Below, piece after piece: positions 8,901-10,956 of a stretch of DNA of 21,037 nucleotides. Position numbers and translations under genes: made by a program. The stretch is from a virus, in IMG/VR virus record IMGVR_UViG_3300043446_003241, positions 1 to 21,037 of that record. One strand, given 5' to 3'. The notes beneath the pieces were generated by a model. The model made no database searches. It was not told the origin of the DNA and worked only from the letters and a program-made list of their open reading frames with translations. How positions within the stretch are numbered: position 1 is the first letter of the stretch; each line of letters opens with the position of its first letter.

Positions 8901-9769
8901 CTGACTTCATCACCTTTGCCCGGGCCCATGGTGTCGAGATTGACCCCGGGCGGCTGTACCCCTCAGACAAGATCAAGCGGTGCGGCACGGTCGAGAAGCC
9001 CCGGTCGGGCAACGGGGCCTACTTTTGGGATGGCGAGCGCGGCTGGGTCATGGACTGGTCAGGAGAGGCCAGAGTCGTTTGGTACCAGTCGGACAAGGCC
9101 AAGCCTTGGACGCCCGAAGAAAAGCGCCTGTGGGCCCAGAAAAGGGCCTCTGCGGCCTCGGATCAGGAGCGCAAGTACCAGCAGGCTGCGCTGCAGGCCG
9201 ACATGACCCTGCGCTCGGCCATCGTTGACCACCACCCTTACCTTGAGGTCAAGGGGTTCAAGGACGACAAAGGGCTGGTTTTGGGCGACAAACTGCTGAT
9301 CCCCATGCGCAACGTCTCGACCAACAAGTTGCAGGGCTACCAGTCCATTTGGTGGAACATGGATGAGGTCAAGTACGAAAAGAAGATGATGACCGGCATG
9401 AGGGCCAAGAATGCGGTGTTTTGGCTCGGCCAGCGCGACGCAGACGAGATCTGGCTGGTGGAGGGCTATGCCACCGGTTTGAGCGTGCGTGCGGCCCTGA
9501 GAAGCTGCGGCATGTCCGGCTCTGTGGTGGTGGCCTTCAGCGCCTCCAACCTCGTGCAGGTGGCCGACCAGATCCCGGGGCGGCGGTTTGTGTTTGCGGA
9601 CAATGACGAGTCAAAGACCGGCGAGAAGGCCGCTATACAGACCGGCCTGCCGTGGACGATGGCCGATGAGAAGGGCTGGGACGCCAACGACCTGCATGCG
9701 CACCACGGCCTGTTTGCGGTGGTCAAGAAGATGATGCTGTGCAGGAGGGTGGAAAAAGCCCACGCTTGA
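8897..9769 (+). CDS. TOPRIM-domain DNA primase (290 aa)
   Basis: ATG 8897 overlaps the upstream stop by 4 bp. An upstream in-frame ATG at 8852 is rejected because it lies inside the previous gene. The N-terminal region (GRLYPSDKIKRCG...GNGAYFWDGERGWVMDW) resembles the start of phage TOPRIM primases. The TOPRIM core is intact: WLVEGYATGLS (Glu189), FVFADNDES (Asp235, Asp237) and WDANDLH (Asp262/265). Primer synthesis on the lagging strand is the expected role, alongside the separate helicase. Its TGA stop lies within the -35 element of the next promoter (TTGACA at 9766), so primase and ncRNA genes abut without spare sequence. Confidence 0.88.
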   Translation: MTDFITFARAHGVEIDPGRLYPSDKIKRCGTVEKPRSGNGAYFWDGERGWVMDWSGEARVVWYQSDKAKPWTPEEKRLWAQKRASAASDQERKYQQAALQADMTLRSAIVDHHPYLEVKGFKDDKGLVLGDKLLIPMRNVSTNKLQGYQSIWWNMDEVKYEKKMMTGMRAKNAVFWLGQRDADEIWLVEGYATGLSVRAALRSCGMSGSVVVAFSASNLVQVADQIPGRRFVFADNDESKTGEKAAIQTGLPWTMADEKGWDANDLHAHHGLFAVVKKMMLCRRVEKAHA

Positions 9770-9793
9770 CACGACTTCCCGACGTCGTAAAAT
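9766..9793 (+). promoter_or_regulatory. Strong sigma70-like promoter of the ncRNA, with dyad in the spacer
   Basis: Perfect -35 TTGACA (9766-9771), a 16-bp spacer and -10 TAAAAT (9788-9793). An inverted repeat ACGAC (9771-9775)/GTCGT (9784-9788) fills the spacer and may be an operator. The predicted transcription start is near 9800. Confidence 0.7.
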
Positions 9794-9799
9794 TCGGGC

Positions 9800-9922
9800 A
9801 TTGCTAGGTGTGAGAGCCGTCGCAATTGAGCCGTTAAGCCTGATCCCGACCCCGTTCTGGGGTAGCCGCTGACCCAAAAAGTCGACGGTTCTCTCACCGG
9901 GGTCAGACTTAACGGCTTTTTT
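9800..9922 (+). ncRNA. Putative phage ncRNA with two interleaved long stems and terminator
   Basis: No ORF is present. From the predicted start the RNA holds stem A (9810-9822 with 9883-9897: 13 bp, 2-nt bulge), hairpin C (ACCCC 9849-9853 with GGGGT 9859-9863) and stem B (9829-9848 with 9898-9917: 20 positions, one mismatch, one G-T). Stem B runs straight into six T and is an intrinsic terminator. A and B are interleaved, so they form either a tight pseudoknot or two alternative folds. CTGACCC (9869-9875) competes for the same GGGTCAG (9900-9906) used by B, as in a switch. Own promoter plus terminator suggest a free RNA of about 120 nt. It matches no family I can recognise. Confidence 0.72.
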
Positions 9923-9929
9923 GTTTTCC

Positions 9930-10213
9930 ACGCCCTGCACGTACTCCGCACGAAAGTAGGGGCCGCAAGTGGGGCTGCTCGGAAGAAAACCGCGACACGG
10001 TATGCCGCAAGGCTAGGGGGCAGTTCCCGAATAATCCGTGCGGCTGGTCGAATCATCAAGCCGAGGGGCAGACGGTATCCAATCCGTCGCATGATGATCC
10101 TGTTCAACAGGGGTGAAGCACCTTCCCTCTCTACTCCTCACTGGGGTAGGGGGGTCTTTGGGTGAAAGGATTGATAGGGATCAAGAAGGGGGCCGGTCGG
10201 GCTCCATTTTTTT
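9930..10213 (+). ncRNA. Second structured noncoding region ending in a terminator
   Basis: About 280 bp without a credible ORF but rich in hairpins: 9932-9940/9969-9975 (7 bp), 9990-10000/10036-10043 (8 bp with bulge) enclosing GCC-GCAA-GGC (10004-10013), 10040-10062, GACGG/CCGTC (10071-10088), CCTG/CAGG (10099-10111), GGTG/CACC (10112-10122) and CTACTCC/GGGGTAG (10131-10149). It ends with an intrinsic terminator (10189-10213). No clear promoter of its own is seen, so it may be made by read-through from 9800, giving a single RNA of about 410 nt. Not recognised as tRNA, tmRNA or RNase P. Confidence 0.5.
10189..10213 (+). terminator. Intrinsic terminator of the noncoding region
   Basis: GGGGCC (10189-10194) pairs with GGCTCC (10200-10205), including one G-T pair, around a 5-nt loop, followed by A and seven T. 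It insulates the next promoter 10 bp downstream. Confidence 0.7.
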
Positions 10214-10266: not shown

Positions 10267-10956
10267 ATGAGTCAAGACCAACTGATCGAGCAGTACTATT
10301 TCCAGACGCCCGTGTACCTTGTGAAGAAGCCGGAATTCCTGCCGGTGGTCAATGCGGTGTCTCAACGGTACATCGAGAGATCGAGGGCTCGCAAGAAAAA
10401 CAAGAACCCTGTGATGGTGATGTCGGGCAGCTACATGAACGAGCCTGAGATTGCCGAATTTGCGAAGTACGTGTCTCAGACTGGCTGGAACATTCTGTCC
10501 GCGCAGGGTTACCGCATGGAAGATCTGGTGACCTACTTCACCGAGATGTGGACGCAAGAGCACAACCACATGTCCTCGATGGAGACCCACGTTCACGGCC
10601 ACGGCGTGCAGATCAGCGCCTTCTACTTCCTCGATGCGCCAGAGAACTCATGCAAGCTGGTGGTTCACGATCCGCGCCCGGGCAAGGTAATTGTTAACCT
10701 GCACCAGAAGGACGCACGTCAGGTCACTGAAGCATCGCACCAGATCGTGTTCAAGCCTGAGCCCGGGTTGCTGGTGTTCATCAATTCTTGGGTGCCCCAC
10801 AGCTTCACCAAGAACTTCAGCAAGCAGCCCTTGCGGTTTGTCCACATCAACATGTCCGTGGCACTGAGCCCTGAGGCATTGGAGCGCATCAAGAATGGCG
10901 AGGTGCCCAAGAAGGTGTGCAAGATGAAGAACAAGAAGTCAGTTGAAGTCCTATGA
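10267..10956 (+). CDS. Putative 2-oxoglutarate-Fe(II) oxygenase (229 aa)
   Basis: ATG 10267 follows GAAAGGTGAAG. The double-stranded beta-helix signature of the phage 2OG-Fe(II) oxygenase family (2OG-FeII_Oxy_5 type) is visible. It comprises a His-rich first ligand region (METHVHGHGVQISAFYFL, His108-112), a central HDPR, and GLLVFINSWVPHSF with the distal His178, followed by RFVHINMSV, where Arg190 fits the co-substrate site. Such enzymes hydroxylate proteins or nucleobases; the substrate is unknown. Related genes are common in aquatic phages. It is the first gene behind promoter copy 2 and overlaps the next gene by 4 bp. Confidence 0.8.
   Translation: MSQDQLIEQYYFQTPVYLVKKPEFLPVVNAVSQRYIERSRARKKNKNPVMVMSGSYMNEPEIAEFAKYVSQTGWNILSAQGYRMEDLVTYFTEMWTQEHNHMSSMETHVHGHGVQISAFYFLDAPENSCKLVVHDPRPGKVIVNLHQKDARQVTEASHQIVFKPEPGLLVFINSWVPHSFTKNFSKQPLRFVHINMSVALSPEALERIKNGEVPKKVCKMKNKKSVEVL

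Follow-up and report, generated by a model that had tools for sequence, protein, structure and literature searches.

The C4 RNAs of phages P1 and P7 and the CI RNA of phage P4 are small antisense RNAs, parts of which are complementary to at least two other sites. In pseudoknotted transcriptional riboswitches, such as those for fluoride, ZTP and preQ1, a pseudoknot is coupled to an intrinsic terminator. RydC, an enterobacterial Hfq-dependent small RNA (sRNA), is about 64 nt long. It ends in a terminator, and its crossing helices form a pseudoknot needed for its stability (PMC4337610). Here we describe RNA1, an RNA of about 123 nt on a 21-kb phage contig (IMG/VR virus record IMGVR_UViG_3300043446_003241, positions 1 to 21,037; this whole stretch of 21,037 nt is called the window), in which promoter and RNA span positions 9766-9922. 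Comparison with its relatives supports RNA1 (9800-9922) as a stand-alone structured non-coding RNA of phages with a predicted promoter of its own. As the initial annotation of the locus had proposed, it contains two helices, A and B, that cannot nest; both are conserved and both covary.

RydC is the nearest architectural parallel to RNA1 but no relative, as the two have no sequence or Rfam relation. The terminator helix of RNA1 (B) is likewise crossed by a second conserved helix (A). RydC is shorter and exposes a 5' seed, whereas RNA1 starts directly in a hairpin (P1), carries extra inner hairpins and is followed by a second structured RNA, RNA2. An exposed conserved 5' seed was not found in RNA1: at most a few nucleotides separate P1 from the predicted start, and the sequence of the P1 loop is not conserved. 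As regards Hfq, a U run is present in RNA1. In contrast to the C4 and CI RNAs, the complementary sites of RNA1 lie inside or right after RNA1 itself, and no repressed operon was identified. C4-type antisense RNA in Rfam gave no hit up to E = 5, and conserved antisense segments were not seen, the loop following its own partner strand A' rather than an outside target (a genome-wide target search was not made). The coupling of a pseudoknot to an intrinsic terminator recalls the riboswitches, but RNA1 has neither a conserved anti-terminator pairing nor a controlled downstream coding gene, and its knot and terminator helix do not compete. The layout of a regulated terminator, initially read into the locus, is not supported on one count: no conserved pairing that competes with helix B was found, and both A and a pairing of the 5' strand with a downstream segment (X:X'', see below) leave B intact. 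RNA2, which has no promoter of its own in the window, does lie downstream of the terminator and may be a regulated transcript. Type III toxin-antitoxin RNA (ToxI), in which pseudoknot repeats in tandem precede the gene of an endoribonuclease toxin, was considered and does not fit, as RNA1 is present in one copy, no tandem repeat was seen and the next gene is 2OG-Fe(II) oxygenase-like. Betaproteobacteria-1 (RF02932) is a structured sRNA of the same loci, but it is the neighbour of RNA1 and not RNA1 itself, and in the window a different kind of RNA2 is found.

The promoter TTGACA-N16-TAAAAT, already recognized in the initial annotation, matches the consensus at 11 of 12 positions. A score of at least 10/12 was found at the same place in 41 of the 48 relatives that make up subfamily I, compared with about 0.6% of shuffles. 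RNA1 is closed by the 20-bp helix B, and its fold is much more stable than that of shuffled sequences (z -5.15, 0/200). Helix B is always interrupted by a mismatch situated some 9 bp above the U run; this mismatch is mostly U-U in subfamily I (9839/9907) and a 2x2 CA/GU mismatch in subfamily III (alignment A2 columns 50-51/97-98). The conserved part of helix A comprises 7 bp and joins the P1 loop to the bases directly before the terminator 3' arm. A protein-coding reading was rejected, because the B-to-B' lengths in the 48 relatives vary regardless of multiples of three and spread evenly over the three classes modulo 3. The features are collected in Table 1.

Table 1. Coordinates of RNA1, its promoter and the downstream elements in the window
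Feature	Position	Strand	Description	Basis
Sigma-70-type promoter	9766-9793	+	TTGACA (9766-9771), 16-nt spacer, TAAAAT (9788-9793); predicted start near 9800	
P1, 5' hairpin	9800-9826	+	stem 9800-9804/9822-9826; loop holds the A 5' arm	fold and partner-swap test
A 5' arm	9810-9816	+	GTGAGAG	covariation
B 5' arm, terminator helix	9830-9848	+	mismatch base 9839; pairs 9830-9838/9908-9916 and 9840-9848/9898-9906; 1x1 mismatch 9839/9907	covariation
P3 hairpin	9849-9863	+	ACCCC-GTTCT-GGGGT	fold; kept in alignment
P4 hairpin	9864-9890	+	position kept, sequence and length variable	fold
A'	9891-9897	+	CTCTCAC; pseudoknot partner of 9810-9816; directly abuts B'	covariation
B 3' arm (B')	9898-9916	+	mismatch base 9907	covariation
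U run of intrinsic terminator	9917-9922	+	predicted RNA1 3' end; invariant in relatives	sequence
X''	9926-9939	+	complementary to 5' strand 9802-9816; available only in the read-through transcript	
RNA2 type alpha	9939-10212	+	aligned part 9939-10164; terminator 10189-10212	

Covariation was assessed in the 48-member alignment of subfamily I, and a short subfamily was aligned separately. In an unguided mutual-information scan of the 48 members, the top pair of the whole alignment was 9816-9891, which lies inside A and occurs as AT in 16, GC in 12, CG in 12 and TA in 4 members. Helix A is paired in 94.9% of cells with 52 double-changed cells, a number reached by 0/500 shuffles. The poor exceptions look like alignment slips, because A is perfect in each of them once the sequence is read outside the alignment. 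Helix B, whose position the initial annotation had given exactly, is paired in 99.8% of cells and shows changes on both sides in 10 of 20 pairs. The covariation that had been called for among related phages is therefore present in both stems. P1 strands fit their own partners better than swapped ones (0/2000). The short subfamily gave the same picture, with 98.3% of helix A paired, 67 double-changed cells and 13 distinct combinations of loop and partner; P1, B and a single inner hairpin are also kept.

These data delimit helix A more narrowly than first drawn. While its first 7 bp (9810-9816/9891-9897) are conserved, the extension 9817-9822/9883-9888 is paired, depending on the position, in no more than 23-62% of relatives, and it would draw on nucleotides that belong to the conserved hairpins P1 and P4. 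The strained 6-nt link between the 5' arms, which had spoken for alternative folds, exists because A was over-extended; the conserved 5' arm of A ends 13 nt before B. A third pairing proposed as a competitor of B (9869-9875/9900-9906) is paired in only 13-26% of relatives at three positions and is peculiar to the copy in the window. Since no base is common to any two of the conserved A, B and P1 outer stem, and all three covary within one set of molecules, one knotted fold is the simplest reading, and a true pseudoknot is favoured over the alternative folds of A and B that had been considered probable. As a rough estimate, the geometry would agree with a knot, as P1, A and the linker together are about as long as helix B.

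Relatives of RNA1 were found at no fewer than 91 distinct viral loci. They fall into two alignable subfamilies (48 and at least 43 members) and several sequence-divergent types, with an RNA size of about 105-130 nt. To compare the layout, we used the stretches behind the primase gene, which is encoded by 80 viral contigs. Their sequences differ widely, and the order A-B-A'-B' is kept. Under strict thresholds, a B helix with a T run at its end is present in 50 of 57 such stretches (0/855 dinucleotide shuffles), and A abuts B' in 43 of 57 (layout in 0/855 shuffles); when the 50 nt upstream of B are shuffled, an A abutting B' persists in 11%. Subfamily I was gathered with a search pattern that covered B's 5' half, giving 54 viral stretches, and the B 3' half and T run are present in every distinct member except L136. 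This sole match in the genome collection, which was scanned with the subfamily-I pattern only, is a chance match because the B' arm is missing, and it lends no support to a host-chromosome origin. The shorter subfamily of at least 43 distinct members was found by a second pattern, and MW202753.1 has the same layout in yet another, unrelated sequence. Nothing was found in plasmids with a subfamily-III query. Within these searches RNA1 was detected only in phages, and the only named phage records that carry it are the uncultured MW202545.1 and MW202753.1. A sequence-divergent type (AAACCCATTGG..GCGGGCTT) lies behind the primase gene in contigs L003, L019 and L053 and displays an apparent second crossing helix, CAGTG/CACTG in L003, CACTG/CAGTG in L019 and CACAG/CTGTG in L053.

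The initial annotation recognized no known class, and a covariance-model scan of Rfam 15 (4227 families), the check it had suggested, agrees: RNA1 had no match at the gathering threshold, and the best E values, 1.4 and 2.6, are at chance level. The literature searched contained no description of RNA1; published phage structured-RNA screens that could list it lay outside that search. Relative to Rfam 15 and this literature, RNA1 is a new RNA family of phages.

RNA2 lies behind nearly all RNA1 copies (about 89 of 91), within about 25 nt. It comes in at least seven kinds, and RNA1 subfamilies and RNA2 kinds combine freely. The kind in the window, alpha, is about 225 nt long, shows double changes at 17 of 61 consensus pairs and has no Rfam match. 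Further examples are L004:4400-4620 and L044:3990-4207, and in L012, L016, L033 and L039 alpha carries an extra arm of 130-165 nt at one place. Another kind is Betaproteobacteria-1, which is found directly behind RNA1 in many phages (copies at L003:4074-4191, L005:4035-4152, L026:4691-4807, L055:3894-4017, L163:309-425 and others). It also occurs without RNA1 in L054 and L055, and a similar sequence is present, likewise without RNA1, in the cultured Acidovorax phage AP1 (L137). No promoter was found between RNA1 and RNA2 in the window.

Upstream of RNA1 in the window lie a helicase gene and then a Toprim primase-like gene ending at 9769. About 500 nt without a credible gene follow, until the 2OG-Fe(II) oxygenase-like gene begins at 10267. 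The usual slot of the RNA1-RNA2 pair is between the primase and oxygenase genes. Other copies are located near homologues of the window's parB/helicase, ruvC or terL genes, and a function tied to primase was for this reason rejected as a rule; given these several neighbourhoods, RNA1 does not serve one adjacent gene. The slot between primase and RNA1 is occupied by tRNA genes in L004, L021, L026, L138 and L187, with five tRNA-like elements in L138 as judged by eye. Recurrent long hairpins closed by CCAACACGCATGGGG..CCCCAGCCGTGTTGG and GGGTTAGCGCC..AACACTGCTTTATGTG elements lie upstream of RNA1 in L026, L034, L039 and L046. In public records, hypothetical protein genes are annotated over RNA1 and RNA2 (L138:4233-4690 in MW202545.1 and L260:550-981 in MW202753.1). 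The start of the contig (window 120-290) is a low-complexity repeat that is open in several frames (Gly-, Cys- or Ala-rich).

We propose, with a probability of about 0.5, that RNA1 is a pseudoknotted trans-acting sRNA and forms the promoter-proximal part of a two-RNA unit with a read-through switch to X''. A, P1 and B would be present at the same time, the stack of P1 and A packing beside helix B, resulting in a compact RNA that is folded from the first to the last base and lacks a long exposed seed. Such an RNA would act in trans via its shape; its target would most likely be a protein or a second RNA that it binds, rather than an mRNA reached by antisense pairing. Termination at the U run would set RNA1 free in most cases, and read-through would extend the transcript into RNA2. 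In the read-through transcript the 5' strand could leave P1/A and pair with X'' instead, so that RNA1 would become a long hairpin on the RNA2 5' end; in the predicted fold of the window's read-through RNA, X:X'' replaces P1 and B stays. Since X'' is made after the termination decision, it cannot decide termination. Of the pseudoknot or RNA switch first suggested, the pseudoknot is favoured and a switch between A and B is not, and what survives of a switch is the complementarity of the 5' strand to 9926-9939. We tentatively add, as a rather doubtful idea, that RNA1 and RNA2 might form a mix-and-match two-RNA device in which the 5' strand of RNA1 could choose among three partners (the hairpin of RNA1 itself, A' and X''), so that the molecule would be a pseudoknotted effector after termination and, after read-through, a long hairpin capping the 5' end of RNA2.

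Several points weigh against the sRNA proposal. Covariation shows selection on both A and B, and by itself is no proof that they form simultaneously. Own X:X'' pairs beat swapped pairs in both subfamilies (0/5000) in a permutation test that ignores relatedness, and a clear X'' is missing in about a third of members. The release of RNA1 is predicted from sequence and its binding partner only postulated. The constant RNA2 neighbour would fit a leader as well as a separate sRNA, and comparison alone does not separate the two. The leading rival is that RNA1 is mainly a leader, an attenuator or 5' cap that sets RNA2 amount or stability, with the terminated fragment as a by-product. The position of RNA2 some 25 nt behind nearly all copies in mix-and-match combinations, the missing promoter between the two RNAs in the window, and the pairing of the 5' end with X'' across the terminator all speak for it. 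On the other side, no conserved pairing competes with helix B: the third pairing is not conserved, A and X:X'' spare B, and X'' is transcribed after the decision. Together with RNA2 of the Betaproteobacteria-1 kind that occurs without RNA1 (L137), this makes the leader possible but less probable than the sRNA.

The other explanations are much weaker candidates. The initial model, in which A and B exclude each other as folds of a regulated terminator, would suit two helices that cross and are close together, and known riboswitches, e.g. the fluoride riboswitch, combine a pseudoknot with a terminator (PMC11077080). We consider this improbable, as the conserved helices share no bases, A is limited to 7 bp and has its 5' arm in a hairpin loop, and neither the conflict-making extension nor the third pairing is conserved. 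Formation of A between molecules, so that RNA1 dimerises or multimerises via loop-to-A' pairing, is equally hard to credit. Loop and A' are complementary in every molecule, which makes intermolecular pairing possible, and the large phage-associated RNAs GOLLD and ROOL are described as forming homo-oligomers (PMC12286853). A', however, is joined to B' with practically no nucleotides in between. The joint changes of loop and A' in any one RNA are also what intramolecular pairing predicts, and no test result favours the dimer. Slightly less probable still is an antisense RNA on a phage or host mRNA for immunity or replication control, the former of which had been suggested initially. The phage location beside a primase gene and the typical sRNA promoter and terminator would agree with it. 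RNA1 is also found away from primase, however, C4-type or other antisense families in Rfam gave no match, and the exposed loop varies freely provided that its own A' partner follows, which is why there is no conserved seed.

For phage biology, RNA1 adds a widespread, strongly covarying RNA superfamily whose fold is kept despite almost complete sequence divergence. The Rfam orphan Betaproteobacteria-1 gains a constant companion in the genome. The annotation of phage non-coding RNAs is incomplete, as the hypothetical protein gene placed over RNA1 in a public record illustrates. Finally, clear and testable predictions for compensatory mutants follow from the pseudoknot between loop and terminator.
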